Below are positions 29,735-58,673 of a DNA stretch of 64,000 nt, one piece after another; position 1 is the stretch's first letter, and every line of letters starts with the position of its first letter. Position numbers and translations under genes: made by a program. Source of the DNA: Neoarius graeffei (lineage: Eukaryota; Chordata; Actinopteri; Siluriformes; Ariidae); NCBI RefSeq assembly GCF_027579695.1, contig NC_083586.1, forward strand, positions 6,258,001 through 6,322,000. Reading direction: 5' to 3'. The notes under the pieces are model-generated. The model was not told the origin of the DNA, did no database searches, and worked only from the letters and a program-made list of their open reading frames with translations.

Positions 29735-29767
<33 letters not shown>

Positions 29768-31790: not shown

Positions 31791-31904
31791 CGCAAATGCA
31801 GATCACAAAGGCACAGTAAAAAGTAAAACCTAAATTCACGCCTGGTCCCAATTCCCAATGATATCAATAGCCAGCTAATGATAAGCCTAATAAAATACCT
31901 AATA

Positions 31905-31961
31905 AAAACACTAATAACAATAATAATAATAATAATAATTATTATTATTAATAATAATAAT

Positions 31962-32013
<52 letters not shown>

Positions 32014-32031
32014 TCAACAACCAACAACAGC

Positions 32032-32071
<40 letters not shown>

Positions 32072-32342
32072 GGCCTAATAATAATAATAATAATGCCTGA
32101 AAGAACATAAGTCTTGTACTACTGCCAACAGCTTAGTAATGATAATAGGCCATAATAATAATAATAATTATAATTATAATAATGCCCGAAAGCAGATTAG
32201 AAATGTGGTGCTACTGCCAATTATAACAATAGCCTAATAATGATAATAGGCCTATGTATTTCTATGGAATGGATAATGCTACTACTGCTGCTACTGCTAC
32301 TACTACTACTACTAATAATAATAATAATAATCTAGCCCAGGG

Positions 32343-32379
<37 letters not shown>

Positions 32380-32380
32380 G
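31905..32380. repeat. (AAT)n and (TCTA)n microsatellites in the hAT 3' part
   Basis: Long AAT/TAA runs at 31916-32100, further short runs to 32330, then (CTAT)n at about 32345-32380. Both strands show long meaningless open frames here. Confidence 0.95.
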
Positions 32381-32535
32381 GTCGATATAAGGTACTGTAG
32401 GTCGGGTGGCGTCACTGCGGGTGAGTGTGTTTGGGGGGGGGGATGGGGGCGGGGCGAGAAGAGGGGCCCCCAACTGCAATGAACCAGCTTTGGTGGGGCC
32501 CAGGTTGCAAAAGGTTGAGAACCCCTGATCTAGAC

Positions 32536-32929
32536 TATAACTGAGACGTAGTAAAAACCAGAATTTTACGTAGTAACTACGTAAAAACACTACGTAACAT
32601 CTACCAAACCACTACATTGTAAGTACGTAGTGACTACGTAAAATTGTTACCTGGGTATATCAGACAAAAACTGAAATAATCTCCATAAAAATAATTATAG
32701 TCGTAAAAGAGCCGTTCAAAAATGATCAAAGACTGAACTGGAAAGGAAAATAAAACAATAAGAGTGAAGGGGAGCGCTATAAAGATATGTAAGGAATGTG
32801 GGTAAAGTTGAGAAAATAAGAGGAAGTAATGAAAGGGTGGAAAAAATCAGGAAATACTTTAGCCAAATACACGCGATGTGCGTGGTAATATGGCGGCCAG
32901 ATGACTTCAATCATCTGTACAGCGCGGAT
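32536..32929. other. No gene recognised
   Basis: Contains repeated TACGTAG/CTACGTA words at 32565-32645 forming small inverted motifs. No coding evidence. Confidence 0.4.
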
Positions 32930-33532
32930 TGGACAATGGGCTCTCCAGCTATGTTACGTCAAACAAAAAGGCTTTCACCGGCCAATCAGGAAGCACTTTC
33001 CTCCTGCCTCATCCTGAATATTAATGAGGTTCCCGCCCACCCCGCGTGTTTTGAAATGTTTATGTTTAAATCGCCGCTGTGTTATTTTTCAACAGCGTTC
33101 ATTCGTGAAACCGGAGAAATCAGGATCAGACCAGCGACTCGGACACAGAGATTATTCCTGAAACACCTCTGGATTTCTTCCTGCAACACATCTGGATTTA
33201 TTCCCGTCTTCAATGGTGCGCTCCAGGAGAAAAGCCCCTCAGGCCGGATGGAGCGGACTGACCGAGCCCTGCAGCGGCGAGTTACCGAGTTTCCCCTTCA
33301 ACAACAAGCGCTTTAAACACCGCCTTATTACAGAAAAGGGTCAACAACAGCAGTGACCAGGCGGAAACGCGCTCAGGAACAGAGTTCACAGCGTTCAGAG
33401 GAGTTTTGCTCAAAGCGACCTGTTCCTTATTGCTGGGCGAATCGGTTTATATCCATGATAATGAGCCTAAAGTTAGCGGCTAGTCAGAAAAGTCGGATCC
33501 GGTTGCAAAACTAATTAGCTGTTAATTAGCTT
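32930..33532 (+). promoter_or_regulatory. Promoter-like CpG-rich segment and first-exon candidate
   Basis: In order: TTTCACCGGCCAATCAGG (CCAAT box), CTGAATATTAATGAGG, CCCGCCCACCCCGCG (GC box), GTTTAAATCG, then a CpG-rich stretch with a 47-codon frame. A block CTGGGCGAATCGGTTTATAT to GTCGGATCCGGTTGC follows, shared with the minus strand at 21540-21640. The copies match upstream and downstream, but the part holding the small frame is much shorter at 21.6 kb. The tandem array starts right after this segment. Confidence 0.5.
33213..33356 (+). CDS. 47-codon candidate small or first-exon ORF
   Basis: ATG in CpG-rich sequence encoding MVRSRRKAPQAGWSGL, LTEPCSGELPSFPFNNKRFK, ITEKGQQQQ, stop. It is very basic and CpG-rich like a first exon, and lies about 170 bp after a CCAAT/GC-box cluster. 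I do not recognise the sequence. A competing frame overlaps it (172 codons from 32798, no recognisable domain). It may be simply untranslated leader. Confidence 0.3.
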   Translation: MVRSRRKAPQAGWSGLTEPCSGELPSFPFNNKRFKHRLITEKGQQQQ

Positions 33533-36500
33533 TTACAGACAAGCGAACGTGAGTGGGACAGGCAAAGTGCAGCCGGGTACTCTTTCTTTCTTTTACAGGT
33601 AAGCGAACGTGAGTGGGACACGCAAAGTGCAGCCAGGTACTCTTTCTTTCTTTTACAGACAAGCGAACGTGAGTGGGACAGGCAAAGTGCCGCCAGGTAC
33701 TCTTTCTTTCTTTTACAGACAAGCAAACGTGAGTGGGACACGCAAAGTGCCGCCAGGTACTCTTTCTTTCTTTTACAGACAAGCAAACGTGAGTGGGACA
33801 GGCAAAGTGCCGCCCGATACTCTTTCTGTTACAGACAAGCGAACGTGAGGGGGACAGGTAAAGTGCCGCCAGGTACTCTTTGTTTCTTTTACAGACAAGC
33901 GAACGTGAGTGGGACAGGCAAAGTGCCGCCAGGTACTCTTTCTTTCTTTTACAGACAAGCGAATGTGAGTGGGACAGGCAAAGTGCCGCCAGGAACTATT
34001 TCTTTCTTTTACAGACAAGCGAACGTGAGCGGGACAGGCAAAGTGCCGCCAGGTATGCTTTCTTTCTTTTACAGACAAGCGAACGTGAGTGGGACAGGCA
34101 AAGTGCAGCGAGGTACTCTTTCTTTCTTTTACAGACAAGCGAACGTGAGTGGGACAGGCAAAGTGCCGCTAGGTACTCTTTCTTTCTTTTACAGGTAAGC
34201 GAACGTGAGCTGGACAGGCAAAGTGCAGACAGGTACTTTTTCTTTCTTTTACAGGTAAGTGAACGTGAGTGGGACAGGCAAAGTGCATCCAGGTACTCTT
34301 TCTTTCTTTTACAGGTAAGTGAACATGAGTGGGACAGTCAAAGTGCCGCCAGGTACTCTTTCTTTCTTTTACAGACAAGCGAACGTGAGTGGGACAGGCA
34401 AAGTGCAGCGAGGTACTCTTTCTTTCATTTACAGACAAAGGAACGTGAGTGGGACAGGCAAAGTGCCACCAGGTACTCTTTCTTCTACAGACAAGCGAAT
34501 GTGAGTGGGACAGGCAAAGTGCCGCCAGGTACTTTCTTTCTTTTACAGACAAGCGAACGTGTGTGGGACAGGCAAAGTGCTGCCAGGTACTCTTTCTTTC
34601 TTTTACAGACAAGCGAACGTGAGTGGGACAGGCAAAGTGCAGCCAGGTACTTTCTTTCTTTTACAGACAAGCGAAGGTGAGTGGGACGGGCAAAGTGCAG
34701 CCAGGTACTTTCTTGTACAGACAAGCGAAGGTGAGTGGGACAGGCAAAGTGCCGCCAGGTACTCTTTGTTTCTTTTACAGACAAGCTAACGTGAGGGGGA
34801 CAGGTAAAGTGCCGCCAGGTACTCTTTGTTTCTTTTACAGACAAGCGAACGTGAGTGGGACAGGCAAAGTGCTGCCATGTACTCTTTCTTTTACAGACAA
34901 GCGAACGTGAGTGGGACAGGCAAAGTGCCGCCAGGTACTCTTTGTTTCTTTTACAGACAAGCGAACGTGAGTGGGACAGGCAAAGTGCTGCCATGTACTC
35001 TTTCTTTTACAGACAAGCGAACGTGAGTGGGACAGGCAAAGTGCAGCCAGGTACTCTTTCTTTCTGTTACAGACAAGCGAAGGTGAGTGGGACAGGCAAA
35101 GTGCAGCCATGTACTCTTTGTTTCTTTTACAGACAAGCGAACGTGAGTGGGACAGGCAAAGTGCTGCCATGTACTCTTTCTTTCTTTTACAGACAAGCGA
35201 ACGTGAGTGGAACAGGCAAAGTGCCACCAGGTACTTTCTTTCTTTTACAGACAAGCGAACGTGAGTGGGACAGACAAAGTGCAACCAGGTACTCTTTCTT
35301 TCTTTTACAGACAAGCGAACGTGAATGGGACAGGCAAAGTGCCGCCAGGTACTTTCTTTCTTTTACAGACAAGCGAACGTGAGTGGGACAGGCCAAGTGC
35401 CGCCAGGTACTCTTTGTTTCTTTTACAGACAAGCGAACGTGAGTGGGACAGGCAAAGTGCCACCAGGTACTCTTTCTTTCTTTTACAGACAAGCGAACGT
35501 GAGTGGGACAGGCCAAGTGCCGCCAGGTACTCTTGCTTCTACAGACAAGCGAACGTGAGTGAAACAGGCAAAGTGCCGCCAGGTACTCTTTCTTTCTTTT
35601 ACAGACAAGCGAATGTGAGTGGGACATGCAAAGTGCCGCCAGGTACTCTTTCTTTCTTTTACAGACAAGTGAACGTGAGTGGGACAGGCCAAGTGCCGCC
35701 AGGTACTCTTGCTTCTACAGACAAGCGAACGTGAGTGAAACAGGCAAAGTGCCGCCAGGTACTTTCTTTCTTTTACAGACAAGCAAACGTGAGTGGGACA
35801 GGCAAAGTGCCGCCAGGTACTCTTTGTTTCTTTTACAGTCAAGCTAACGTGAGTGGGACAGGTAAAGTGCCGCCAGGTACTCTTTGTTTCTTTTACAGAC
35901 AAGCCAACGTGAGTGGGACAGGCAAAGTGCCGCCAGATACTCTTTCTTTCTTTTACAGACAAGCGAACGTGAGTGGGACAGGCCAAGTGCCGCCAGGTAC
36001 TCTTTCTTTCTTTTACAGACAAGTGAACGTGAGTGGGACAGGCAAAGTGCTGCCATGTACTCTTTCTTTCTTTTACAGACAAGCGAACGTGAGTGGGACA
36101 GGCAAAGTGCAGCCAGGTACTCTTTCTTTCTGTTACAGACAAGCGAACGTGAGTGGGACAGGCAAAGTGCAGCCATGTACTCTTTCTTTCTTCTACAGAC
36201 AAGCGAACGTGAGTGGGACAGGCAATGTGCAGCCAGGTACTCTTTCTTCCACAGTCAAGCGAACGTGAGTGGGACAGGCAAAGTGCCGACAGGTATGCTT
36301 TCTTTCTTTTACAGACAAGCGAACGTGAGTGGGACAGGCAAAGTGCCGCCAGGTACTCTTTCTTTCTTTTACAGACAAGCGAACGTGAGTGGGACAGGCA
36401 AAGTGCAGCCAGGTACTCTTTCTTTCTGTTACAGACAATCGAACGTGAGTGGGACAGGCAAAGTGCAGCCAGGTACTCTTTCTTTCTTCTACAGACAAGC

Positions 36501-39500
36501 GAACGTGAGTGGGACAGGCAATGTGCAGCCAGGTACTCTTTCTTCTACAGTCAAGCGAACGTGACTGGGACAGGCAAAGTGCCGACAGGTATGCTTTCTT
36601 TCTTTTACAGACAATCGAACGTGAGTGGGACAGGCAAAGTGCTGCCATGTACTCTTTCTTTCTTTTACAGACAAGCGAACGTGAGTGGGACAGGCAAAGT
36701 GCAGCCAGGTACTCTTTCTTTCTGTTAGACAAGCGAACGTGAGGGGGACAGGTAAAGTGCAGCCATGTACTCTTTCTTTCTTCTAAAGACAAGCGAACGT
36801 GAGTGGGACAGGCAAAGTGCCGCCAGGTACTCTTTCTTTCTTTTACAGACAAGCGAACGTGAGTGGGACAGGCAAAGTGCCGCCAGGTACTCTTTGTTTC
36901 TTTTACAGACAATCGAACGTGAGCGGGACAGGCAAAGTGCCGCCAGGTACTCTTTCTTCTACAGACAAGCGAACGTGAGTGGGACAGGCAAAGTGCCGCC
37001 AGGTGCTCTTTGTTTCTTTTACAGACAAGCGAACGTGAGTGGGACAGGCAAAGTGCAGCCAGGTACTCTTTCTTTCTTTTACAGACAATCGAACGTGAGC
37101 GGGACAGGCAAAGTGCCGCCAGGTACTCTTTCTTCTACAGACAAGCGAACGTGAGTGGGACAGGCAAAGTGCCGCCAGGTACTCTTTGTTTCTTTTACAG
37201 ACAAGCGAACGTGAGTGGGACAGGCAAAGTGCAGCGAGGTACTCTTTCTTTCTTTTACAGACAAACGAACGTGAGTGGGACAGGCAAAGTGCAGCGAGGT
37301 ACTCTTTCTTTCTTTTACAGACAAACGAACGTGAGTGGGACAGGCCAAGTGCCGCCAGGTACTCTTTATTCTACAGACAAGCGAACGTGAGTGGGACAGG
37401 CAAAGTGCCGCCAGGTACTCTTTCTTTCTTTTACAGACAAGCGAACGTGAGTGGGACAGGCAAAGTGCCGCCAGGTATGCTTTCTTTCTTTTACAGACAA
37501 GCTAACGTGAGTGGGACAGGCAAAGTGCCGCCAGGTACTCTTTCTTTCTTTTACAGACAAGTGAACGTGAGTGGGACAGGCAAAGTGCTGCCATGTACTC
37601 TTTCTTTCTTTTACAGACAAGCGAACGTGAGTGGGACAGGCAAAGTGCAGCCAGGTACTCTTTCTTTCTTTTACAGACAAGTGAACGTGAGTGGGACAGG
37701 CAAAGTGCTGCCATGTACTCTTTCTTTCTTTTACAGACAAGCGAACGTGAGTGGGACAGGCAAAGTGCAGCCAGGTACTCTTTCTTTCTGTTACAGACAA
37801 GCGAACGTGAGTGGGACAGGCAAAGTGCAGCCATGTACTCTTTGTTTCTTCTACAGACAAGCGAACGTGAGTGGGACAGGCAATGTGCAGCCAGGTACTC
37901 TTTCTTCCACAGTCAAGCGAACGTGAGTGGGACAGGCAAAGTGCCGACAGGTATGCTTTCTTTCTTTTACAGACAAGCGAACGTGAGTGGGACAGGCAAA
38001 GTGCCGCCAGGTACTCTTTCTTTCTTTTACAGACAAGCGAACGTGAGTGGGACAGGCAAAGTGCAGCGAGGAACTCTTTCTTTCTTTTACAGACAAGCGA
38101 ACGTGAGCGGGACAGGCAAAGTGCCGCCAGGTATGCTTTCTTTCTTTTACAGACAAGCGAACGTGAGTGGGACAGGCAAAGTTCCGCCAGGTATGCTTTC
38201 TTTCTTTTACAGACAAGCGAACGTGAGCGGGACAGGCAAAGTGCCGCCAGGTATGCTTTCTTTCTTTTACAGACAAGCGAACGTGAACGGGACAGGCAAA
38301 GTGCCGCCAAGTATGCTTTCTTTCTTTTACAGACAAGCGAACGTGAGTGGGACAGGCAAAGTGCCGCCAGGTACTCTTTCTTTCTTTTACAGACAAGCGA
38401 ACGTGAGTGGGACAGGCAAAGTGCAGCGAGGAACTCTTTCTTTCTTTTACAGACAAGCGAACGTGAGCGGGACAGGCAAAGTGCCGCCAGGTATGCTTTC
38501 TTTCTTTTACAGACAAGCGAACGTGAGCGGGACAGGCAAAGTGCCGCCAGGTATGCTTTCTTTCTTTTACAGACAAGCGAACGTGAACGGGACAGGCAAA
38601 GTGCCGCAAAGTATGCTTTCTTTCTTTTACAGACAAGCTAACGTGAGTGGGACAGGCAAAGTGCCGCCAGGTATGCTTTCTTTCTTTTACAGACAAGCGA
38701 ACGTGAGTGGGACAGGCAAAGTTCCGCCAGGTACTCTTTCTTTCTTTTACAGACAAGCGAACGTGAGCGGGACAGGCAAAGTGCCGCCAGGTATGCTTTC
38801 TTTCTTTTACAGACAAGCGAACGTGAGCGGGACAGGCAAAGTGCCTCCAGGTATGCTTTCTTTCTTTTACAGACAAGCGAACGCGAGTGGGACAGGCAAA
38901 GTGCCGCCAGGTACTCTTTGTTTCTTTTACAGACAAGCGAACGTGAGTGGCACAGGCAAAGTGCAGCGAGGTACTCTTTGTTTCTTTTACAGACAAGCGA
39001 ACGTGAGTGGGACAGGCCAAGTGCCGCCACGTACTCTTTCTTCTACAGACAAGCGAACGTGAGTGGGACAGGCCAAGTGCCACCACGTGCTCTTTCTTCT
39101 ACAGACAAGCGAACGTGAGTGAAACAGGCAAAGTGCCGCCAGGTACTTTCTTTCTTTTACAGACAAGCGAACGTGAGTGGGACAGGCAAAGTGCCGCCAG
39201 GTACTTTCTTTCGTTTACAGACAAGCGAACGTGAGTGGGACAGGCAAAGTGCCGCCAGGTACTCTTTGTTTCTTTTACAGACAAGCGTACGTGAGTGGGA
39301 CAGGCAAAGTGCCGCCAGGTACTCTTTGTTTCTTTTACAGACAAGCGAACGTGAGTGGGACAGGCAAAGTGCCGCCAGGTACTCTTTGTTTCTTTTACAG
39401 ACAAGCGAACGTTAGAGGGACAGGCAAAGTGCCACCAGGTACTCTTTCTTTCTTTTACAGACAAGCGAACGTTAGTGGGACAGGCAAAGTGCCGCCAGGT

Positions 39501-42500
39501 ATTTTCTTTCTTTTACAGACAAGCGAACGTGAGTGGGACAGGCAAAGTGCGGCCAGGTACTCTTTCTTCTACAGACAAGCGAACGTGAGTGGGACAGGCA
39601 AAGTGCCGCCAGGTATGCTTTCTTTCTTTTACAGACAAGCGAACGTGAGTGGGACCGGCAAAGTGCCGCCAGGTACTCTTTCTTTCCTTTACAGACAAAC
39701 GAATGTGAGTGGGACCGGCAAAGTGCAGCGAGGTGCTCTTTCTTTCTTTTACAGACAAGTGAACGTGAGTGGGACAGGCAAAGTGCCGCCAGGTACTCTT
39801 TCTTTCCTTTACAGACAAGCGAATGTGAGTGGGACAGGCAAAGTGCCGCCAGGTAGTCTTTCTTTCTTTTACAGACAAGCGAACGTGAGTGGGACAGGCA
39901 AAGTGCCGCCAGGTACTCTTTCTTTCCATTACAGACAAGCGAATGTGAGTGGGACAGGCAACGTGCCGCCAGGTACTATTTTCTTTCTTTTACAGACAAG
40001 CGAACGTGAGTGGGACAGGCACAGTGCCGCCAGTTACTCTTTCTTTCTTTTACTGACAAGCGAACGTGAGTGGGACAGGCAAAGTGCAGCGAGGTACTCT
40101 TTCTTTCTTTTACAGACAAGTGAACGTGAGTGGGACAGGCAAAGTGCAGCCAGGTACTCTTTCTTCTACAGACAAGCGAACGTGAGTGGGACAGGCAAAG
40201 TGCAGCGACGTACTCTTTCTTTCTTTTACAGACAAGTGAACATGAGTGGGACAGGCAAAGTGCAGCCTGGTACTCTTTCTTCTACAGACAAGCAAACGTG
40301 AGTGGGACAGGCAAAGTGCAGCGAGGTACTCTTTCTTTCTTTCACAGACAAGTGAACGTGAGTGGGACAGGCAAAGTGCAACCAGGTACTCTTTCTTCTA
40401 CAGACAAGCGAACGTGAGTGGGACAGGCAAAGTGCAGCCAGGTGCTCTTTCTTTCTTTTACAGACAAGCGAACGTGAGTGGGACAGGCAATGTGCTGCCA
40501 GGTACTCTTTCTTTCTTTTACATACAAGCAAACGTGAGAGGGACAGGCAAAGTGCAGCGAGGTACTCTTTCTTTCTTTTACAGACAAGCGAACGTGAGTG
40601 GGACAGGCAAAGTGCAGCGAGGTACTCTTTTTTTTTTTTCTTTTACAGACAAGTGAACGTGAGTGGGACAGGCAAAGTGCAGCCTGGTACTCTTTCTTCT
40701 ACAGACAAGCGAACGTGAGTGGGACAGGCAAAGTGCAGCGAGGTACTCTTTTTCTTTTACAGACAAGTGAACGTGAGTGGGACAGGCCAAGTGCAGCCAG
40801 GTACTCTTTCTTCTACAGACAAGCGAATGTGAGTGGGACAGGCAATGTGCAGCGAGGTACTCTTTCTTTCTTTTACAGACAAGCGAACGTGAGTGGGACA
40901 GGCAAAGTGCAGCGAGGTACTCTTTCTTTCTTTTACAGACAAGTGAACGTGAGTGGGACAGGCAAAGTGCAGCCTGGTACTCTTTCTTCTACAGACAAGC
41001 GAACGTGAGTGGGACAGGCAAAGTGCAGCGAGGTACTCTTTCTTTTACAGACAAGTGAACGTGAGTGGGACAGGCAAAGTGCAGCCTGGTACTCTTTCTT
41101 TTACAGACAAGTGAACGTGAGTGCCACAGCCAAAGTGCTGCCAGGTACTCTTTCTTTCTTCTACAGACAAGCGAACGTGTGTGGGACAGGCAAAGTGCAG
41201 CCAGGTGCTCTTTCTTTCTTTTACAGACAAGCGTACGTGAGTGGGACAGGCAAAGTGCCGCCAGGTACTATTTCTTTCTTTTACAGACAAGCGAACGTGA
41301 GTGGGACAGGCATAGTGCCGCCAGGTACTCTTTCTATCTTTTACAGACACGCGAACGTGAGTGGGACAGGCAAAGTGCCGCCAGGTACTCTTTCTTCTAC
41401 AGACAAGCGAACGTGAGTGGAACAGGCAAAGTGCCACCAGGTACTTTCTTTCTTTTACATACAAGCGAACGTGAGTGGGACAGACAAAGTGCAACCAGGT
41501 ACTCTTTCTTTCTTTTACAAACAAGCGAACTTGAATGGGACAGGCAAAGTGCCGCCAGGTACTCTTTCTTCTACAGACAAGCGAACGTGAGTGGAACAGG
41601 CAAAGTGCCACCAGGTACTTTCTTTCTTTTACAGACAAGCGAACGTGAGTGGGACAGACAAAGTGCAACCAGGTACTCTTTCTTTCTTTTACAGACAAGC
41701 GAACGTGAGTGGGACAGACAAAGTGCAACCAGGTACTCTTTCTTTCTTTTACAGACAAGCGAACGTGAGTGGGACAGACAAAGTGCAACCAGGTACTCTT
41801 TCTTTCTTTTACAAACAAGCGAACTTGAATGGGACAGGCAAAGAGCCGCCAGGTACTCTTTCTTCTACAGACAAGCGAACGTGAGTGGAACAGGCAAAGT
41901 GCCACCAGGTACTTTCTTTCTTTTACAAACAAGCGAACGTGAGTGGGACAGGCAAAGTGCAGCCTGGTACTCTTTCTTCTACAGACAAGCGAACGTGAGT
42001 AGAACAGGCAAAGTGCTGCCAGGTACTTTCTTTCTTTTACAGACAAGCGAACGTGAGTGGGACAGGCAAAGTGCCGCCAGGTACTATTTCTTTCTTTTAC
42101 AGACAAGCGAACGTGAGTGGGACAGGCAAAGTGCCGCCAGGTACTCTTTGTTTCTTTTACAGACACGCGAACGTGAGTGGGACAGGCAAAGTGCCGCCAG
42201 GTACTCTTTCTTCTACAGACAAGCGAACGTGAGTGGGACAGGCAAAGTGCAGCCTGGTACTCTTTCTTCTACAGACAAGCGAACGTGAGTAGAACAGGCA
42301 AAGTGCTGCCAGGTACTTTCTTTCTTTTACAGACAAGCGAACGTGAGTGGGACAGGCAAAGTGCCGCCAGGTACTATTTCTTTCTTTTACAGACAAGCGA
42401 ACGTGAGTGGGACAGGCAAAGTGCCGCCAGGTACTCTTTGTTTCTTTTACAGACACGCGAACGTGAGTGGGACAGGCAAAGTGCCGCCAGGTACTCTTTC

Positions 42501-45500
42501 TTCTACAGACAAGCGAACGTGAGTGGGACAGACAAAGTGCAACCAGGTACTCTTTCTTTCTTTTACAGACAAGTGAATGGGACAGGCAAAGTGCCGCCAG
42601 GTACTTTCTTTCTTTTACAGACAAGCGAACGTGAGTGGGACAGGCCAAGTGCCGCCAGGTACTGTCTTTCTTTTACATACAAGCGAACGTGAGTGGGACA
42701 GGCCAAGTGCCGCCAGGTACTTTCTTTCTTTTACATACAAGCGAACGTGAGTGGGACAGGCCAAGTGCCGCCAGGTACTTTCTTTCTTTTACAGACAAGC
42801 GAACGTGAGTGGGACAGGCCAAGTGCCGCCAGGTACTGTCTTTCTTTTACATACAAGCGAACGTGAGTGGGACAGGCCAAGTGCCGCCAGGTACTTTCTT
42901 TCTTTTACATACAAGCGAACGTGAGTGGGACAGGCCAAGTGCCGCCAGGTACTTTCTTTCTTTTACAGACAAGCGAACGTGAGTGGGACAGGCAACGTGC
43001 AGCGAGGTACTTTCTTTCTTTTACAGACAAGCGAACGTGAGTGGGACAGTCACAGTGCAGCCAGGTACTCTTTCTTTCTTTTACAGACAAGCGAACATGA
43101 GTGGGACAGGCCAAGTGCCGCCAGGTACTTTCTTTCTTTTACATACAAGCGAACGTGAGTGGGACAGGCCAAGTGCAGCCAGGTACTTTCTTTCTTTTAC
43201 AGACAAGCGAACGTGAGTGGGACAGGCAAAGTGCCGCCAGGTACTTTCTTTCTTTTACAGACAAGCGAACGTGAGTGGGACAGGCAACGTGCAGCGATGT
43301 ACTCTTTCTTTCTTTTACAGACAAGCGAACGTGAGTGGGACAGGCAAAGTGCAGCCAGGTACTCTTTCTTTCTTTTACAGACAAGCGAACGTGAGTGGGA
43401 CTGGCAAATTGCCGCCAGGTACTCTTTCTTCTACAGACAAGCGATCCTGAGTGGAACAGGCAAAGTGCCGCCAGGTACTCTTTCTTTCTTTTACAGTCAA
43501 GCGAACATGAGTTGGACAGGCACAGTGCTGCTAGGTACTCTTTCTTTCTTTTACAGGCAAGCGAACGTGAGTGGGACTGGCAAATTGCCGCCAGGTACTC
43601 TTTCTTCTACAGACAAGCGATCCTGAGTGGAACAGGCAAAGTGCCGCCAGGTACTCTTTCTTTCTTTTACAGTCAAGCGAACATGAGTTGGACAGGCACA
43701 GTGCTGCTAGGTACTCTTTCTTTCTTTTACAGGCAAGCGAACGTGAGTGGGCCAGGCAAAGTGCCGCCACGTACTCTTTCTTCTACAGACAAGCGAACGT
43801 GAGTGGGACAGGCAAAGTGCAGCCCGGTGCTCTTTCTTTCTTTTACAGACAAGCGAACGTGAGTGGGACAGCTAAAGTGCAGCGAGGTACTCTTTCTTTC
43901 TTTTACAGACAAGCGAACGTGAGTGGGACAGGCAAAGTGCAGCCTGGTACTCTTTCTTCTACAGACAAGCCAACGTGAGTAGGACAGGCAAAGTGCAGCC
44001 CGGTGCTCTTTCTTTCTTTTACAGACAAGCGAACGTGAGTGGGACAGCTAAAGTGCAGCGAGGTACTCTTTCTTTCTTTTACAGACAAGCGAACGTGAGT
44101 GGGACAGGCAAATGGCCGCCAGGTACTCTTTCTTTCTTTTACAGACAAGCCAACGTGAGTAGGACAGGCAAAGTGCAGCCCGGTGCTCTTTCTTTCTTTT
44201 ACAGACAAGCGAACGTGAGTGGGACAGCTAAAGTGCAGCGAGGTACTCTTTCTTTCTTTTACAGACAAGCGAACGTGAGTGGGACAGCTAAAGTGCAGCG
44301 AGGTACTCTTTCTTTCTTTTACAGACAAGCGAACGTGAGTGGGACAGGCAAATGGCCGCCAGGTACTCTTTCTTTCTTTTACAGACAAGCGAACGTGAGT
44401 GTGACAGGCAAAGTGCTGCCAGCTACTCTTTCTTTCTTTTACAGACAAGCGAACGTGAGAGGGACAGGCAAAGTGCAGCGAGGTACTCTTTCTTTCTTTT
44501 ACAGACAAGCGAACGTGAGTGGGACAGGCAAATGGCCGCCAGGTACTCTTTCTTTCTTTTACAGACAAGCGAACGTGAGTGAAACAGGCAATGTGCCGCC
44601 AGGTACTCTTTGTTTCTTTTACAGACAAGCGAACGTGAGTGAAACAGGCAAAGTGCCGCCAGGTACTCTTTGTTTCTTTTACAGACAAGCGAACGTTAGA
44701 GGGACAGGCAAAGTGCCACCAGGTACTCTTTCTTTCTTTTACAGACAAGCGAACGTTAGTGGGACAGGCAAAGTGCCGACAGGTATTTTCTTTCTTTTAC
44801 AGACAAGCGAACGTGAGTGGGACAGGCAAAGTGCGGCCAGGTACTCTTTCTTCTACAGACAAGCGAACGTGAGTGGGACAGGCAAAGTGCCGCCAGGTAC
44901 TCTTTCTTTCCTTTACAGACAAGCGAACGTGAGTGGGACAGGCAAAGTGCCGCCAGGTACTCTTTCTTTCTTTTACAGACAAGCGAACGTGAGTTGGACA
45001 GGCAAAGTGCCGCCAGGTACTCTTTCTTTCCTTTACAGACAAGCGAACGTGAGTGGGACAGGCAAAGTGCCGCCAGGTACTCTTTCTTTCTTTTACAGAC
45101 AAGCGAACGTGAGTTGGACAGGCAAAGTGCCGCCAGGTACTCTTTCTTTCCTTTACAGACAAGCGAATGTGAGTGGGACAGGCAAAGTGCCGCCAGGTAC
45201 TATTTTCTTTCTTTTACAGACAAGCGAACGTGAGTGGGACAGGCACAGTGCCACCAGTTACTCTTTCTTTCTTTTACTGACAAGCGAACGTGAGTGGGAC
45301 AGGCAAAGTGCAGCGAGGTACTCTTTCTTTCTTTTACAGACAAGTGAACGTGAGTGGGACAGGCAAAGTGCAGCGAGGTACTCTTTCTTTCTTTTACAGA
45401 CAAGCGAACGTGAGTGGGACAGGCAAAGTGCAGCGAGGTACTCTTTCTTTCTTTTACAGACAAGTGAACGTGAGTGGGACAGGCAAAGTGCAACCAGGTA

Positions 45501-48500
45501 CTCTTTCTTCTACAGACAAGCGAACGTGATTGGGACAGGCAAAGTGCAGCCAGGTGCTCTTTCTTTCTTTTACAGACAAGCGAACGTGAGTGGGACAGGC
45601 AAAGTGCTGCCAGGTACTCTTTCTTTCTTTTACAGACAAGCGAACGTCAGTGGGACAGGCAAAGTGCAGCCAGCTACTCTTTCTTTCTCTTACAGACAAG
45701 CGAACATGAGTGGGACAGGCAAAGTGCAGCCATGTACTCTTTCTTTTACAGACAAGCGAACATGAGTGGGACAGGCAAAGTGCAGCCATGTACTCTTTCT
45801 TTTACAGACAAGCGAACGTGAGTGTGACGGCAAAGTGCGGCCAGGTTCTCTTTCTTCTACAGACAAGCGAACGTGAGTGGGTCAGGCAAAGTGCCGCCAG
45901 GTACTCTTTTTCTTTCTTTTACAGACAAGCGAACGTGAGCGGGACAGGCACAGTGCCGCCAGTTACTCTTTCTTTCTTTTACTTACAAGCGAACGTGAGT
46001 GGGACAGGCAAAGTGCAGCGAGGTACTCTTTCTTTCTTTTACAGACAAGTGAACGTGAGTGGGACAAACAAAGTGCAGCCAGGTACTCTTTCTTCTACAG
46101 ACAAGCGAACGTGAGTGGGACAGGCAAAGTGCAGCGAGGTACTCTTTCTTTCTTTTACAGACAATTGAACGTGAGTGGGACAGGCCAAGTGCAGCCAGGT
46201 ACTCTTTCTTTTACAGACAAGCGAATGTGAGTGGGACAAGCAAAGTGCCGCTAGGTACTCTTTCTTTTACATGCAAGCTAACGTGAGGGGGACAGGCAAA
46301 GTGCGGCCAGGTACTCTTTGTTTCTTTTACAGACAAGCGAACGTGTGTGGGACAGGCCAAGTGCCGCCAGGTACTCTGTTTCTTTTACAGACAAGTGAAC
46401 ATGACTGGCACAGCCAAAGTGCTGCCAGGTACTCTTTCTTTCTTTTACAGACAAGCGAACGTGAGTAGGACAGGCAAAGTGCAGCGAGGTACTCTTTCTT
46501 TCTTTTACAGACAAGCGAACGTGAGTGGAACAGGCAAAGTGCTGCCAGGTACTCTTTCTTTCTTTTACAGACAAGCGAACGTGAGTAGGACAGGCAAAGT
46601 GCAGCGAGGTACTCTTTCTTTCTTTTACAGACAAGCGAATGTGAGTGGAACAGGCAAAGTGCTGCCAGGTACTTTCTTTCTTTTACAGACAAGCGAACGT
46701 GAGTGGGACAGGCAAAGTGCAGCCAGGTACTCTTTCTTTCTTTTACAGACAAGCGAACGTGAGTGAAACAGGCAAAGTGCCGCCAGGTACTCTTTGTTTC
46801 TTTTACAGACAAGCGAACGTGAGTGGGACAGGCAAAGTGCCGCCAGGTACTCTTTGTTTCTTTTACACACAAGCGAACGTTAGAGGGACAGGCAAAGTGC
46901 CACCAGGTACTCTTTCTTTCCTTTACAGACAAGCGAACGTGAGTTGGACAGGCAAAGTGCCGCCAGGTACTCTTTCTTTCCTTTACAGACAAGCGAATGT
47001 GAGTGGGACAGGCAAAGTGCCGCCAGGTACTATTTTCTTTCTTTTACAGACAAGCGAACGTGAGTGGGACAGGCACAGTGCCACCAGTTACTCTTTCTTT
47101 CTTTTACTGACAAGCGAACGTGAGTGGGACAGGCAAAGTGCAGCGAGGTACTCTTTCTTTCTTTTACAGACAAGTGAACGTGAGTGGGACAGGCAAAGTG
47201 CAGCGAGGTACTCTTTCTTTCTTTTACAGACAAGCGAACGTGAGTGGGACAGGCAAAGTGCAGCGAGGTACTCTTTCTTTCTTTTACAGACAAGTGAACG
47301 TGAGTGGGACAGGCAAAGTGCAACCAGGTACTCTTTCTTCTACAGACAAGCGAACGTGATTGGGACAGGCAAAGTGCAGCCAGGTGCTCTTTCTTTCTTT
47401 TACAGACAAGCGAACGTGAGTGGGACAGGCAAAGTGCTGCCAGGTACTCTTTCTTTCTTTTACAGACAAGCGAACGTCAGTGGGACAGGCAAAGTGCAGC
47501 CAGCTACTCTTTCTTTCTCTTACAGACAAGCGAACATGAGTGGGACAGGCAAAGTGCAGCCATGTACTCTTTCTTTTACAGACAAGCGAACATGAGTGGG
47601 ACAGGCAAAGTGCAGCCATGTACTCTTTCTTTTACAGACAAGCGAACGTGAGTGTGACGGCAAAGTGCGGCCAGGTTCTCTTTCTTCTACAGACAAGCGA
47701 ACGTGAGTGGGTCAGGCAAAGTGCAGCCATGTACTCTTTCTTTTACAGACAAGCGAATGTGAGTGGGACAGGCAAAGTGCAGCCAGCTACTCTTTCTTTC
47801 TCTTACAGACAAGCGAACATGAGTGGGACAGGCAAAGTGCAGCCATGTACTCTTTCTTTTACAGACAAGCGAACATGAGTGGGACAGGCAAAGTGCAGCC
47901 ATGTACTCTTTCTTTTACAGACAAGCGAACATGAGTGGGACAGGCAAAGTGCAGCCATGTACTCTTTCTTTTACAGACAAGCGAACGTGAGTGTGACGGC
48001 AAAGTGCGGCCAGGTTCTCTTTCTTTTACAGACAAGCGAATGTGAGTGGGACAGGCAAAGTGCAGCCATGTACTCTTTCTTTTACAGACAAGCGAATGTG
48101 AGTGGGACAGGCAAAGTGCAGCCAGCTACTCTTTCTTTCTCTTACAGACAAGCGAACATGAGTGGGACAGGCAAAGTGCAGCCATGTACTCTTTCTTTTA
48201 CAGACAAGCGAACATGAGTGGGACAGGCAAAGTGCAGCCATGTACTCTTTCTTTTACAGACAAGCGAACATGAGTGGGACAGGCAAAGTGCAGCCATGTA
48301 CTCTTTCTTTTACAGACAAGCGAACGTGATTGGGACAGGCAAAGTGCGGCCAGGTTCTCTTTCTTCTACAGACAAGCGAACGTGATTGGGACAGGCAAAG
48401 TGCAGCCAGGTGCTCTTTCTTTCTTTTACAGACAAGCGAACGTGAGTGGGACAGGCAAAGTGCTGCCAGGTACTCTTTCTTTCTTTTACAGACAAGCGAA

Positions 48501-51500
48501 CGTCAGTGGGACAGGCAAAGTGCAGCCAGCTACTCTTTCTTTCTCTTACAGACAAGCGAACATGAGTGGGACAGGCAAAGTGCAGCCATGTACTCTTTCT
48601 TTTACAGACAAGCGAATGTGAGTGGGACAGGCAAAGTGCAGCCAGCTACTCTTTCTTTCTCTTACAGACAAGCGAACATGAGTGGGACAGGCAAAGTGCA
48701 GCCATGTACTCTTTCTTTTACAGACAAGCGAACATGAGTGGGACAGGCAAAGTGCAGCCATGTACTCTTTCTTTTACAGACAAGCGAACGTGAGTGTGAC
48801 GGCAAAGTGCGGCCAGGTTCTCTTTCTTCTACAGACAAGCGAACGTGAGTGGGTCAGGCAAAGTGCCGCCAGGTACTCTTTTTCTTTCTTTTACAGACAA
48901 GCGAACGTGAGCGGGACAGGCACAGTGCCGCCAGTTACTCTTTCTTTCTTTTACTTACAAGCGAACGTGAGTGGGACAGGCAAAGTGCAGCGAGGTACTC
49001 TTTCTTTCTTTTACAGACAAGTGAACGTGAGTGGGACAAACAAAGTGCAGCCAGGTACTCTTTCTTCTACAGACAAGCGAACGTGAGTGGGACAGGCAAA
49101 GTGCAGCGAGGTACTCTTTCTTTCTTTTACAGACAATTGAACGTGAGTGGGACAGGCCAAGTGCAGCCAGGTACTCTTTCTTTTACAGACAAGCGAATGT
49201 GAGTGGGACAAGCAAAGTGCCGCTAGGTACTCTTTCTTTTACATGCAAGCTAACGTGAGGGGGACAGGCAAAGTGCGGCCAGGTACTCTTTGTTTCTTTT
49301 ACAGACAAGCGAACGTGTGTGGGACAGGCCAAGTGCCGCCAGGTACTCTGTTTCTTTTACAGACAAGTGAACATGACTGGCACAGCCAAAGTGCTGCCAG
49401 GTACTCTTTCTTTCTTTTACAGACAAGCGAACGTGAGTAGGACAGGCAAAGTGCAGCGAGGTACTCTTTCTTTCTTTTACAGACAAGCGAACGTGAGTGG
49501 AACAGGCAAAGTGCTGCCAGGTACTCTTTCTTTCTTTTACAGACAAGCGAACGTGAGTAGGACAGGCAAAGTGCAGCGAGGTACTCTTTCTTTCTTTTAC
49601 AGACAAGCGAATGTGAGTGGAACAGGCAAAGTGCTGCCAGGTACTTTCTTTCTTTTACAGACAAGCGAACGTGAGTGGGACAGGCAAAGTGCAGCGAGGT
49701 ACTCTTTCTTTCTTTTACAGACAAGCGAACGTGAGTGAAACAGGCAAAGTGCCGCCAGGTACTCTTTGTTTCTTTTACAGACAAGCGAACGTGAGTGGGA
49801 CAGGCAAAGTGCCGCCAGGTACTCTTTGTTTCTTTTACACACAAGCGAACGTTAGAGGGACAGGCAAAGTGCCACCAGGTACTCTTTCTTTCCTTTACAG
49901 ACAAGCGAACGTGAGTTGGACAGGCAAAGTGCCGCCAGGTACTCTTTCTTTCCTTTACAGACAAGCGAATGGGAGTGGGACAGGCAAAGTGCCGCCAGGT
50001 ACTATTTTCTTTCTTTTACAGACAAGCGAACGTGAGTGGGACAGGCACAGTGCCACCAGTTACTCTTTCTTTCTTTTACTGACAAGCGAACGTGAGTGGG
50101 ACAGGCAAAGTGCAGCGAGGTACTCTTTCTTTCTTTTACAGACAAGTGAACGTGAGTGGGACAGGCAAAGTGCAGCGAGGTACTCTTTCTTTCTTTTACA
50201 GACAAGCGAACGTGAGTGGGACAGGCAAAGTGCAGCGAGGTACTCTTTCTTTCTTTTACAGACAAGTGAACGTGAGTGGGACAGGCAAAGTGCAACCAGG
50301 TACTCTTTCTTCTACAGACAAGCGAACGTGATTGGGACAGGCAAAGTGCAGCCAGGTGCTCTTTCTTTCTTTTACAGACAAGCGAACGTGAGTGGGACAG
50401 GCAAAGTGCTGCCAGGTACTCTTTCTTTCTTTTACAGACAAGCGAACGTCAGTGGGACAGGCAAAGTGCAGCCAGCTACTCTTTCTTTCTCTTACAGACA
50501 AGCGAACATGAGTGGGACAGGCAAAGTGCAGCCATGTACTCTTTCTTTTACAGACAAGCGAACATGAGTGGGACAGGCAAAGTGCAGCCATGTACTCTTT
50601 CTTTTACAGACAAGCGAACGTGAGTGTGACGGCAAAGTGCGGCCAGGTTCTCTTTCTTCTACAGACAAGCGAACGTGAGTGGGTCAGGCAAAGTGCAGCC
50701 ATGTACTCTTTCTTTTACAGACAAGCGAATGTGAGTGGGACAGGCAAAGTGCAGCCAGCTACTCTTTCTTTCTCTTACAGACAAGCGAACATGAGTGGGA
50801 CAGGCAAAGTGCAGCCATGTACTCTTTCTTTTACAGACAAGCGAACATGAGTGGGACAGGCAAAGTGCAGCCATGTACTCTTTCTTTTACAGACAAGCGA
50901 ACATGAGTGGGACAGGCAAAGTGCAGCCATGTACTCTTTCTTTTACAGACAAGCGAACGTGAGTGTGACGGCAAAGTGCGGCCAGGTTCTCTTTCTTTTA
51001 CAGACAAGCGAATGTGAGTGGGACAGGCAAAGTGCAGCCATGTACTCTTTCTTTTACAGACAAGCGAATGTGAGTGGGACAGGCAAAGTGCAGCCAGCTA
51101 CTCTTTCTTTCTCTTACAGACAAGCGAACATGAGTGGGACAGGCAAAGTGCAGCCATGTACTCTTTCTTTTACAGACAAGCGAACATGAGTGGGACAGGC
51201 AAAGTGCAGCCATGTACTCTTTCTTTTACAGACAAGCGAACATGAGTGGGACAGGCAAAGTGCAGCCATGTACTCTTTCTTTTACAGACAAGCGAACGTG
51301 AGTGTGACGGCAAAGTGCGGCCAGGTTCTCTTTCTTTTACAGACAAGCGAATGTGAGTGGGACAGGCAAAGTGCAGCCATGTACTCTTTCTTTTACAGAC
51401 AAGCGAACATGAGTGGGACAGGCAAAGTGCAGCCATGTACTCTTTCTTTTACAGACAAGCGAACGTGAGTGTGACGGCAAAGTGCGGCCAGGTTCTCTTT

Positions 51501-54343
51501 CTTCTACAGACAAGCGAACGTGAGTGGGTCAGGCAAAGTGCCGCCAGGTACTCTTTTTCTTTCTTTTACAGACAAGCGAACGTGAGCGGGACAGGCACAG
51601 TGCCGCCAGTTACTCTTTCTTTCTTTTACTTACAAGCGAACGTGAGTGGGACAGGCAAAGTGCAGCGAGGTACTCTTTCTTTCTTTTACAGACAAGTGAA
51701 CGTGAGTGGGACAAACAAAGTGCAGCCAGGTACTCTTTCTTCTACAGACAAGCGAACGTGAGTGGGACAGGCAAAGTGCAGCGAGGTACTCTTTCTTTCT
51801 TTTACAGACAATTGAACGTGAGTGGGACAGGCCAAGTGCAGCCAGGTACTCTTTCTTTTACAGACAAGCGAATGTGAGTGGGACAAGCAAAGTGCCGCTA
51901 GGTACTCTTTCTTTCTTTTACATGCAAGCTAACGTGAGGGGGACAGGCAAAGTGCGGCCAGGTACTCTTTGTTTCTTTTACAGACAAGCGAACGTGTGTG
52001 GGACAGGCCAAGTGCCGCCAGGTACTCTGTTTCTTTTACAGACAAGTGAACATGACTGGCACAGCCAAAGTGCTGCCAGGTACTCTTTCTTTCTTTTACA
52101 GACAAGCGAACGTGAGTAGGACAGGCAAAGTGCAGCGAGGTACTCTTTCTTTCTTTTACAGACAAGCGAACGTGAGTGGAACAGGCAAAGTGCTGCCAGG
52201 TACTCTTTCTTTCTTTTACAGACAAGCGAACGTGAGTAGGACAGGCAAAGTGCAGCGAGGTACTCTTTCTTTCTTTTACAGACAAGCGAATGTGAGTGGG
52301 TCAGGCAACGTGCCGCTAGGTACTTTTTCTTTCTTTTACAGACAAGCTAACGTGAGGGGGACAGGCAAAGTGCGGCCAGGTACTTTCTTTCTTTTACAGA
52401 CAAGCGAACGTGAGTGGGACAGGCAAAGTGCAGCGAGGTACTCTTTCTTTCTTTTACAGACAAGTGAACGTGAGTGGGACAGGCAAAGTGCAGCCTGGTA
52501 CTCTTTCTTCTACAGACAAGCGAACGTGAGTGGGACAGGCAAAGTGCAGCGAGGTACTCTTTCTTTCTTTTACAGACAAGTGAACGTGAGTGGCACAGCC
52601 AAAGTGCTGCCAGGTACTCTTTCTTTCTTCTACAGATAAGCGAACGTGAGTGGAACAGGCAAAGTGCTGCCAGGTACTTTCTTTCTTTTACAGACAAGCG
52701 AACGTGAGTGGGACAGGCAAAGTGCCACCAGGTACTCTTTCTTTCCTTTACAGACAAGCGAATGTGAGTGGGACAGGCAAAGTGCCGCCAGGTACTCTTT
52801 CTTCTATAGACAAGCGAACGTGAGTGGGACAGACAAAGTGCAACCAGGTACTCTTTCTTTCTTTTACAAACAAGCGAACTTGAATGGGACAGGCAAAGTG
52901 CCGCCAGGGACTGTTTCTTTCTTTTACAGACAAGCGAACGTGAGTGGGACAGGCAAAGTGCCGCCAGGTAGTCTTTGTTTCTTTTACAGACAAGCGAACG
53001 TTAGTGGGACAGGCAAAGTGCAACGAGGTACTCTGTCTTTCTTTTACAGACAAGCGAACGTGAATGGGACAGGCAAAGTGCCGCCAGGTACTTTCTTTCT
53101 TTTACAGACAAGCGAACGTGAGTGGGACAGGCCAAGTGCAGCCAGGTACTCTTTCTTTCTTTTACAGACAAGCGAACGTGAGTGGGACAGGCCAAGTGCC
53201 GCCAGGTACTTTCTTTCTTTTACAGACAAGCGAACGTGAGTGGGACAGGCAACGTGCAGCGAGGTACTCTTTCTTTCTTTTACAGACAAGCGAACGTGAG
53301 TGGGACAGGCAAAGTGCAGCCAGGTACTCTTTCTTTCCTTTACAGACAAGCGAACGTGAGTGGGACAGGCAAAGTGCAACGAGGTACTCTGTCTTTCTTT
53401 TACAGACAAGCGAACGTGAATGGGACAGGCAAAGTGCCGCCAGGTACTTTCTTTCTTTTACAGACAAGCGAACGTGAGTGGGACAGGCCAAGTGCAGCCA
53501 GGTACTCTTTCTTTCTTTTACAGACAAGCGAACGTGAGTGGGACAGGCCAAGTGCCGCCAGGTACTTTCTTTCTTTTACATACAAGCGAACGTGAGTGGG
53601 ACAGGCAAAGTGCCGCCAGGTACTTTCTTTCTTCTACAGACACGCGAACGTGAGTGGGACAGGCAAAGTGCCGCCAGGTACTTTCTTTCTTCTACAGACA
53701 CGCGAACGTGAGTGGGACAGGCACAGTGCAGCCAGGTACTTTCTTTCTTTTACAGACAAGCGAACATGAGTGGGACAGGCCAAGTGCAGCCAGGTACTTT
53801 CTTTCTTTTACAGACAAGCGAACGTGAGTGGGACAGGCCAAGTGCCGCCAGGTACTTTCTTTCTTTTACAGACAAGCGAACGTGAGTGGGACAGGCAACG
53901 TGCAGCGAGGTACTCTTTCTTTCTTTTACAGACAAGCGAACGTGAGTGGGACAGGCAAAGTGCAGCCAGGTACTCTTTCTTTCTTTTACAGACAAGCGAA
54001 CGTGAGTTGGACTGGCAAAGTGCCGCCAGGTACTCTTTCTTCTACAGACAAGCGATCCTGAGTGGGACAGGCAAAGTGCCGCCAGGTACTCTTTCTTTCT
54101 TCTACAGACAAGCGAACGTGAGTGGGACAGGCCAAGTGCCGCCAGGTACTTTCTTTCTTTTACAGACAAGCGAACGTGAGTGGGACAGGCAACGTGCAGC
54201 GAGGTACTATTTCTTTCTTTTACAGACAAGTGAACGTGAGTGGGACAGGCAAAGTGCAGCCTGGTACTCTTTCTTCTACAGACAAGCGAACGTGAGTAGG
54301 ACAGGCAAAGTGCAGCCTGGTACTCTTTCTTCTACAGACAAGC
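33533..54343 (+). repeat. 20.8-kb tandem array, 56-60-bp unit with splice-site-like signals
   Basis: The full unit is 60 bp: ACAAGCGAACGTGAGTGGGA, CAGGCAAAGTGCCGCCAGGT, ACTCTTTCTTTCTTTTACAG. Length variants of 58 bp (ACTTTCTTTC) and 56 bp (TTTCTTCTACAG or TTTCTTTTACAG) are interspersed. Dividing length by unit size gives about 350 copies. The main variable positions are in GCCGCCAGG (also GCAGCCAGG, GCAGCGAGG, GCTGCCAGG, GCAACCAGG, GCAGCCATG). Each unit has a pyrimidine tract ending ACAG, then AAC|GTGAGT 10 nt later, and CCAG|GTACT at about 37. Most units keep both AG and GTGAGT; some have ACAT, ACAA, ACTG, GTTAGT or ATGAGT. Because 60 is divisible by three, five to six frames stay open over long runs, which does not show coding. 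No CRISPR-like logic applies. Confidence 0.97.
45190..52300 (+). repeat. Higher-order duplications inside the array
   Basis: Long stretches recur nearly identically. Sequence at 45200-45790 is repeated at +1830 and again at +4802. Sequence at 45710-46990 recurs 2972 bp later (48682-49964) and 45710-46114 again at 51357-51761, 2675 bp further on. Translations of these blocks are identical or differ by single residues, while neighbouring 60-bp units differ much more. This is a multi-unit amplification of recent date. Confidence 0.9.
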
Positions 54344-54455
54344 CCTGTGATGACCTGGCGACTTGTCCAGGGTGTACCCTGCTTTTCACCCGTAGTCAGC
54401 TGGGATAGGGTCCTGCGACCCTGTAGAACAGGATAAAGTGGCTAGAGATGAATGG
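54344..54455 (+). mobile_element. SINE 3' fragment joined to the array
   Basis: CCCTGTGATGACCTGGCGAC to GGATAAAGTGGCTAGAGATG is the 3' third of the GATGAGAT SINE. It starts abruptly at the last array unit, with an AGC overlap (54341-54343) shared by both sequences. Confidence 0.88.
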
Positions 54456-55298
54456 ACTGAAAACCTAAATAATTATTGACAACTTTTTCCTGGGGCTCAA
54501 GGCAAAAATATTCGCTTGTTGTGCTACATCCTAAAGCAAAGTTTAATTTTATAACATCGAGAGCATCATTATTAGATCATAGATGCCTCTAAACTTTAAA
54601 CTAACACTATTTGTTATCTCTCGAAATGTATTTTCATCTGCGAACGGCTGCTTATATTGTTTCTATGGTAGACTGGGTCTGTATGTGATTATATATGACA
54701 CTGTAATATAGGAGACCTGACCAGTCTGATGAGTTTGTTGAACATCCCATTCCAAAACCATAAGCATGAGGTAAAGAATAACACACAACAGGCCATGCTG
54801 TTATACCACAATAATGCACACAGTGGAAAACTAAACTGAAATCATTGGACTCTGTTTATTGTAAATCTTACATTATGTTAAGTGTCTACAATAATGCATT
54901 AGAACAAACATGTTGATATTAATATCTCATTCATCTTGCAGCCAGAATTACTGTCCGAGATCAAAATACACATTTCCTCAATATTGTAGATGAACCATTT
55001 TATTCCCCTAATCTCAGGGATATGTACGCTTAAAATTGGGCTCAATAACCCAATTAACATGTGAATTTTCTTTCTTCATCAGCTGTATTTAGTACAACAT
55101 TGATTTATTTTAGAAGCATTAGATTTTAAAGATGGTTAAAGCTTGAGAGAAATGGCTCTTTCATTATTTCCTCTGTAGTCTCAGGGAAGTAAAGCTGGTA
55201 AACACAAACAGAAAGTGACTATATCTGATTGTGGAGAAAACATCTGAGCACCTCTACCTGAGTGTGTTTGTAGAATGTGTGTCTTGAATCCCAGTGTG
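54456..55298. other. No gene recognised
   Basis: AT-rich unique-looking sequence without exon or repeat ends that I can name. Confidence 0.4.
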
Positions 55299-56581: not shown

Positions 56582-56622
56582 CGTGGAACAAGTCCCGGAT
56601 CCAGGAACATCTGCTGAAAATC

Positions 56623-58665: not shown

Positions 58666-58673
58666 CGAGCTTC

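Follow-up and report, generated by a model that had tools for sequence, protein, structure and literature searches.

A 60-bp repeat with splice-like signals beside a duplicated catfish gene is most probably a lineage-specific satellite

The array and its surroundings

The window (the whole 64,000-nucleotide stretch analysed here, C18:6258001-6322000 of the 2.34-Gb Neoarius graeffei genome) contains a 60-bp unit repeated head to tail in one array. The original prediction of a 20.8-kb tandem array holds true: TRF reports 354 copies at 33530-54331 (plus strand) with a period of 60 and 90% matches, and a final partial unit extends the full block to 33530-54343, or 20.8 kb. A unit cutter separated 353 units, comprising 214 of 60 bp, 78 of 56 bp, 43 of 58 bp and 18 of other lengths; the 56- and 58-bp units lack letters of the CTTT-rich tract, and all units share one orientation as far as the cutter could see. 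The consensus reads TTACAG/ACAAGCGAAC/GTGAGTGGGACAGGCAAAGTGCAGCCAG/GTACTCTTTCTTTCTT, and the mean pairwise identity of the window units is 0.87. Growth of this array is recent, because 46 consecutive units from 45690 (45690-48661, one 2972-bp period on the plus strand by unit comparison) are repeated from 48662 at a mean identity of 99.8%. A run of 15 units is found again from 51393, and further runs recur at distances of 296 to 5647 bp. The array thus displays a long near-identical head-to-tail run, block duplication and local homogenisation, as satellite DNA does. An exact scan of viral contigs with a 22-base piece of the unit gave no match.

Directly upstream lies part of a many-copy gene, called X here. 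The CCAAT segment noted there in the original prediction is real and belongs to the promoter-like part of X, which together with the X leader occupies 32962-33212 (plus strand; blastn and MAFFT). It contains CCAAT at 32982, an E2F-like TTCCCGCCC and TTTGAA, elements named by consensus reading. Within the window, 32962-33071 has a minus-strand paralogue at 21773-21673 (75% over 112 bp, blastn); a MAFFT comparison with the window copy showed that an X copy on C1 retains the CCAAT and lacks the GC-rich stretch. An exon 1 remnant reading MVRSRRKAPQAGWSGLTEPCS and onward follows at 33213-33276 (plus strand), recognised because a tblastn search with the exon 1 peptide from C1 found 10 of 14 residues identical at 33237-33278; WSGLTEPC is common to the two copies. 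The C1 exon 1 reads MNFLFEDLLLQMEALPPREWSGLTEPCDG, with a likely end at GACG/GTGAGTTAG. By homology, the 5' splice site of exon 1 falls at 33277-33278 (plus strand), where the window has GC and the C1 copy GT (CTGCAGCG/GCGAGTTACC versus CTGCGACG/GTGAGTTAGCC). Sequence comparison assigns the first ~250 bp of intron 1 to 33279-33529 (plus strand), ending in TTAATTAGC at the array junction. Since the donor position is set by the C1 copy, the array begins ~250 bp into X intron 1, and the same evidence rules out the array edge as the exon-1 donor.

An array-free copy of X spans 21776-19704 on the minus strand of the window. Its promoter and the start of its intron 1 (21521-21776, minus strand) form an empty site, matching the array-bearing copy at 91.6% over 119 bp that end at the array edge. 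Its exon 2, a repeat-rich open reading frame at 19704-20494 (minus strand) with an acceptor ending CTCTTTAG/ACACAGG, was recognised by a tblastn match to its C1 counterpart (37% identity, E 0.001). That C1 copy, at ~24.2164-24.2139 Mb, also has an intron 1 free of the array, yet an array starts ~5 kb past its end. Downstream of the window array, blastn and tblastn found no X exon 2 in the next 9.6 kb or the following 30 kb, in searches of an exon that varies strongly between copies (37% identity); none was seen either in the 524 bp visible past the C1 19.64M array. A protein search with X exon 2 returned no match at E 0.001. Exon 2 also holds a 36-bp coding minisatellite of its own (19706-20214, minus strand), where the C1 copy too has proline-rich repeats.

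A 99-mer of X intron 1 gave at least 40 scored genome matches, including itself and the in-window copy. The best three outside the window, all on the plus strand, are C1:27803082, C1:26984618 and C1:19577397. Two of these three were fetched, C1:27803082 and C1:19577397, and both enter an array at a junction identical to that of the window, TTAATTAGC/TTTTA-AGACAAGCG; the match at C1:26984618 lies within 17 kb of the C1 27.0M array. By eye, the copies at C1:19.577M and C1:27.803M lack the last part of exon 1 together with the donor. The array had been described as lying in sense orientation to the promoter, which is indeed seen at three loci; because the junction is identical at all three, that orientation is best read as one joining event that was copied.

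At the other edge, the 3' ~110 bp of a tRNA-headed SINE (54344-54454, plus strand) is joined to the array end at a shared AGC, as sequence comparison shows; we take this SINE to be Mermaid-like. Several other features lie around the array. Pfam searches, six-frame over 13550-33530 and 54344-64000, found an immunoglobulin V-set segment at 14700-15116 (plus strand, E 2e-13) that ends YYCALQP and is followed by CACAGTG and, 22 nt on, by ACAAAAACT; judged by the recombination-signal consensus, this is presumably a T-cell-receptor V segment with its recombination signal. The V segment and the SINEs of the window are in keeping with ray-finned fish DNA. Two THAP-domain matches lie on the plus strand at ~16643-16843 (E 3e-6) and 18028-18264 (E 7e-9), at coordinates calculated from the match positions. 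An open reading frame of 628 amino acids at 29904-31790 (plus strand) matches the hAT dimerisation domain weakly and short of the Pfam cut-off (E 0.001), and the minus strand of the 54344-64000 segment carries a second hAT match, a C-terminal one (E 1e-9). Adjoining U2 and U5 snRNA genes or pseudogenes occur in repeated DNA at 16020-16481 (minus strand) and 56809-57302 (plus strand), at 79-85% identity, and tRNA clusters (Thr, Gln, Phe and weaker copies) lie within duplicated segments at 1566-2355, 25788-27603 and 60813-61068.

The same unit elsewhere in the genome

Among the matches listed, the unit occurs at at least 11 places, the window included, on C1 and C18 and on both strands. Those on C1 are 18.73-18.74, 19.58-19.64, 22.86-22.88, 24.18-24.21, 24.78, 26.45-26.47, 27.00-27.02, 27.80-27.83 and 30.07-30.13 Mb, and C18 adds 1.55-1.60 Mb to the window; C1 24.78, C1 30.07-30.13 and C18 1.55-1.60 Mb are placed by listed matches, continuity having been checked where sequence was fetched. 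Three minus-strand arrays have both edges mapped (C1 24179535-24209057, 18732475-18742175 and 26446236-26468422). The arrays at C1 27.0 and 22.86 Mb are longer, lie on the plus strand and contain inverted patches of 332 and 254 bp. Where measured, array lengths are 9.7-30 kb. Six array consensuses differ from one another in 0-10 columns and read CAG/ACAA or CAG/GCAA. Presence at unlinked loci on C1 and C18 is a further property of satellite DNA. None of 20 sample points of 1.5 kb on C1 between 12 and 33 Mb contained the unit; the arrays therefore look like discrete blocks and not like one satellite sea.

Three C1 arrays begin 49 nt into the intron that follows an exon of PRKDC (DNA-PKcs), an identity based on matches to six PDB sequences (E ~2e-18) and a Pfam FAT match below the Pfam cut-off (E 0.004). 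This one FAT-domain exon has 11 genome matches, several of them close together, so the gene or fragments of it have been duplicated; the matches lie at C1 18.7, 24.2, 26.5, 40.4, 46.2 and 46.3 Mb, C18 0.57 and 0.61 Mb, and C21 34.4 Mb. Five of the eight copies without a known array were fetched, and no unit was found in the 1.3-2 kb read from each. Array-free copies continue CTTGCAAG/YGTWTTTATACC, whereas copies with an array read CTTGCAAG/CTCTTTC. The next PRKDC exon follows ~290 nt on in four of the five array-free copies, with other sequence at that place in the fifth.

A single 50-bp satellite unit lies in a transposon-like element at ~1388-1842 of locus L017 (C1 ~18.38 Mb). The element is bordered by TTAA on either side and has inverted ends AAAGGAACAGTCCACCGTATTTCCATAAT; the unit lies near one end, between the terminal inverted repeats. 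We rejected this element as the demonstrated founder: element end and unit occur together at one place only, among the best 40 of 118 candidates, and a single captured unit is therefore just as likely as a founder there. Short sequences are common to the unit and the array edges, AGC at the SINE and GCAAGC at PRKDC, and are consistent with break repair by microhomology.

Splice-like letters and their conservation

Each unit resembles a splice acceptor followed by donors. The spacing first described is confirmed, with GTGAGT 10 nt after the acceptor AG and a second donor-like GT 38 nt from that AG, and so is the claim that most units keep both signals. Among the 353 window units, 329 have the acceptor AG, 326 CAG, 313 the first donor GT, 264 the full GTGAGT and 330 the second GT; AG and the first GT occur together in 292, CAG with GTGAGT in 247, and AG with both GTs in 270. 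Scored with splice-site consensus matrices, the unit acceptor reaches 13.5 bits and the first donor (AAC/GTGAGT) 8.0 bits, and the second donor is weak at 3.9 bits. No signal on the opposite strand comes close, the best acceptor there scoring 3.3 and the best donor 0.0. When 4000 random circularised 60-mers were drawn from the flanks, the acceptor score was reached by 0.05%, the first-donor score by 3.4% and both by 0.025%, or one in 4000; the founder unit is therefore genuinely splice-like. The signals are common to ~350 units because these were copied from a single founder, and they do not represent 350 separate origins.

The geometry of the array leaves little room for splicing between adjacent units. 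The second donor is followed by the next AG after 22 nt and the first donor after 50 nt in a 60-bp unit. Usual vertebrate introns are longer than either gap, and splicing between neighbours is therefore hardly possible. Reading the array as a coding exon string was also rejected, since a 38-nt unit exon shifts the frame and the third frame hits TGA.

A recursive-splicing tract would consist of ratchet points, each a pyrimidine tract with CAG/GTAAG and a zero-length exon. Perfect ratchet-point-like sites do exist, in 31 of 494 units at C1 24.18M, in 43 of 367 at C1 22.86M and in four window units (at 33593, 34189, 34249 and 34309), and in this they resemble the recursive splice sites described in Drosophila (PMC8605326). 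The described sites juxtapose acceptor and donor (PMC8605326), whereas the consensus unit here places 10 nt between AG and GT, and ratchet-like units are a small minority: four of 353 in the window and 82 of 2061 over six arrays match the CAG/GTRAG form. The array consensuses themselves read CAG followed by ACAA or GCAA, and the ratchet-like units hold no fixed place in the array. We give this reading almost no credence.

The density of the signals speaks for a decoy, in which array RNA made from the X promoter would bind U2AF or PTBP1 at ~330 strong pyrimidine-AG sites, as a PNCTR-like sponge, or would trap splicing. In the 20.8-kb array, 328 acceptors score 10 bits or more, a density of 15.8 per kb where the flanks have 0.3-0.4. 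It also carries 778 TCTTT and 842 YTCTYY motifs, which we take to be PTBP1-type, compared with 94 and 152 in 43 kb of flanks read on that strand; TCTTT is accordingly dense, 778 in 20.8 kb versus 94 in 43 kb. The array is moreover sense to the X promoter at the three loci with the copied junction. Several observations weigh on the other side. The pure 15-nt pyrimidine tract is kept in only 157 of the 353 units, the exon-1 donor of the window is GC and that part of exon 1 is absent at C1:19.577M and C1:27.803M, two C1 arrays contain inverted patches, and the AG and GT letters show no significant constraint after base matching, as set out below. PNCTR is described as a pyrimidine-rich tandem-repeat RNA, a proven transcript that sequesters PTBP1 (PMC6224606). 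Hundreds of pyrimidine-tract motifs in a single array are shared with it; unlike PNCTR, the array here is known from DNA, and its tract covers roughly between a quarter and a third of each 60-bp unit. On balance we consider a decoy or sponge very unlikely. The same low expectation applies to a more specific version suggested by the sequence, in which cassettes of X promoter plus array would yield long nuclear RNAs, each bearing hundreds of strong pyrimidine-AG sites, that titrate U2AF2 or PTBP1 or offer decoy acceptors to the X family, a version that would explain why the same junction is found at three loci.

Functional splice letters should be better kept than their neighbours. We compared columns 2-48 of the unit, leaving out the polymorphic column 39 and the slippery tract (columns 49-53, misaligned). 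In the window, the six AG/GT/GT columns depart from the consensus in 4.3% of cells and the other 40 columns in 4.1% (P 0.59), and among 192 unique units the figures are 3.6% and 4.5% (P 0.31). Outside CpG, the P values are 0.37 for all units and 0.27 for unique ones. As a hexamer, GTGAGT is middling for conservation (44th percentile). Its first G sits in a CpG that reads CA in 31 window units; this G is among the four least-kept of columns 2-48.

We extended the comparison to six arrays and 2061 units (494 from C1 24.18M, 159 from 18.73M, 371 from 26.45M, 321 from 27.0M, 367 from 22.86M and 349 from the window), after the cutter had dropped units shorter than 45 or longer than 70 bp, those that fell short of the anchor score and those within inverted patches. 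In that order, the P values for AG/GT/GT are 0.12, 0.58, 0.03, 0.41, 0.07 and 0.57, and outside CpG 0.16, 0.57, 0.01, 0.06, 0.09 and 0.34; one array of the six, C1 26.45M, thus leans toward better-kept letters (P 0.03, non-CpG 0.01). Pooled before base matching, roughly independent mutation events give P 0.13 over all columns and 0.053 outside CpG, and mean divergence gives 0.14 and 0.035. This lean owes much to those critical columns that are A or T, T columns being generally the least variable. When columns were matched for base, the AG/GT/GT letters of the six arrays (2061 units) were not better kept (P 0.125 and 0.17). A rough simulation on pooled events indicates that this test would catch a halved rate in 99.5% of runs and a 0.7-fold rate in 74.5%; therefore, no constraint of two-fold or more is visible, and a weak constraint of less than two-fold on these letters is possible.

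This base-matched comparison is the check that had been proposed for the AG and GT positions against others of equal composition, and, like the comparison within the window (P 0.59), it answers in the negative (P 0.125 and 0.17 over six arrays): the splice letters of the array do not clearly stand above neutral positions, as those of a functional micro-exon array or splicing trap would. The functional roles first envisaged, as splicing trap, recursive tract, source of variable exon strings or factor sink, are left unsupported, with AG and GT no better kept than other positions.

Origin of the unit and what the family offers

Three kinds of comparison bear on where the unit came from. First, against shuffled sequences, the unit shows no significant similarity to exon 1 and intron 1 of X (P 0.75, and 0.09-0.98 in a further comparison), to the start of X exon 2 (P 0.12), to the PRKDC exon edge (P 0.13-0.92) or to the array-free PRKDC intron (P 0.16-0.78). 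Across X, the SINE, the window flanks and PRKDC, no alignment was better than shuffles at P 0.05, the lowest value being 0.087 for a TTTCTTTCTT match in the downstream flank. Founders in X intron 1, X exon 2, the SINE, the window flanks and the PRKDC exon edge or intron were accordingly rejected as similarities that are not significant. Second, two array-free copies of X and five of PRKDC lack the unit, and the edges of X and PRKDC are therefore not the seed of the array. Third, the founder acceptor is unusually good for random DNA, and the unit may therefore still have splice-site ancestry.

These comparisons also decide how far the array can be read as a mirage-type minisatellite, in which the unit would have arisen by duplication of a genuine exon-intron boundary in the host gene, the situation in amphioxus Adh3 and globin genes. 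Its founder acceptor and donor are beyond chance, AG and GT signals are present in the repeats (292 of 353 units), and arrays begin inside X intron 1 or, on C1, 49 nt past the donor of a PRKDC exon; yet the unit has no recognisable host exon-intron boundary, resembles neither X nor PRKDC edges to a significant degree, and is missing from the two empty X copies and the five empty PRKDC copies. We regard this origin as improbable. The IFI6/6-16 minisatellite shares a splice-site-like unit in a gene, and differs in being a short donor repeat, a dodecamer, located where an exon ends; it reportedly provides multiple splice donors and is used. Amphioxus mirages are described as minisatellites across intron-exon boundaries that seemingly do not interfere with regular splicing (PMC3087553). 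Like them, the present family has AG and GT signals in repeat units inside a gene; unlike them, it has a unit in which no genuine exon edge was recognised and also occurs at loci outside X, and the three to six units given for BflGb6 (PMC3087553) contrast with 9.7-30 kb here where measured.

The explanation we favour, and hold to be very probable, is a lineage-specific satellite (long minisatellite) family joined to intron 1 of the duplicated gene X, with the splice-like letters as passengers that are under no detectable constraint and decay where they lie in CpG. The suggestion that the array might be plain satellite DNA grown from an intron edge thus stands as to satellite DNA; growth from an intron edge finds no similarity to build on, and the empty sites lack the unit. 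In favour of a satellite count the unit at many places, inverted patches, block duplication at 99.8%, splice letters that are not better kept, CpG decay, the X junction common to three loci, empty sites and the lone unit in an element with terminal inverted repeats. Against it count the good founder acceptor, the C1 26.45M array (P 0.03), the non-CpG values of two further arrays (P 0.06 and 0.09), the pooled values of 0.035 and 0.053, and the fact that the window array, like the three arrays flanked by PRKDC, runs sense to the adjoining gene fragment. Satellite and long minisatellite DNA shares with this family the head-to-tail layout, several loci, inverted patches, block duplications, homogenisation and CpG decay. 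The family departs from that class in a unit with a good acceptor and a fair donor, and in a promoter-bearing gene junction that was copied along.

A likely course of events can be proposed. A 60-bp founder would have happened to hold a pyrimidine tract, CAG and GTGAGT, and would then have been amplified by block duplication, of which copies are observed, and by unequal exchange, to which these copies point. Array DNA would have been joined into host sites, X intron 1 and a PRKDC intron fragment, and a single unit into a transposon-like element, possibly through break repair at short shared sequences. The join in X intron 1 is observed at at least three places including the window and would have been copied between them as a segmental duplication, in a direction that we infer. 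Should the X promoter be active, the array may make up a long stretch of intron or run-on transcript that splicing mostly passes over, apart from cryptic sites used now and then. In human, genes in segmental duplications are described as changing structure via minisatellites, sometimes with cryptic splice sites (PMC2812944).

The analysis settles a tempting false positive, in which the splice-like letters of one founder mimic hundreds of micro-exons while selection on those letters is not visible. The family is useful for studying how satellites enter genes, as it offers mapped junctions, empty sites at both X and PRKDC and a single captured unit. It is also suited to asking whether the cell ignores ~330 strong acceptor-like sites in one stretch.
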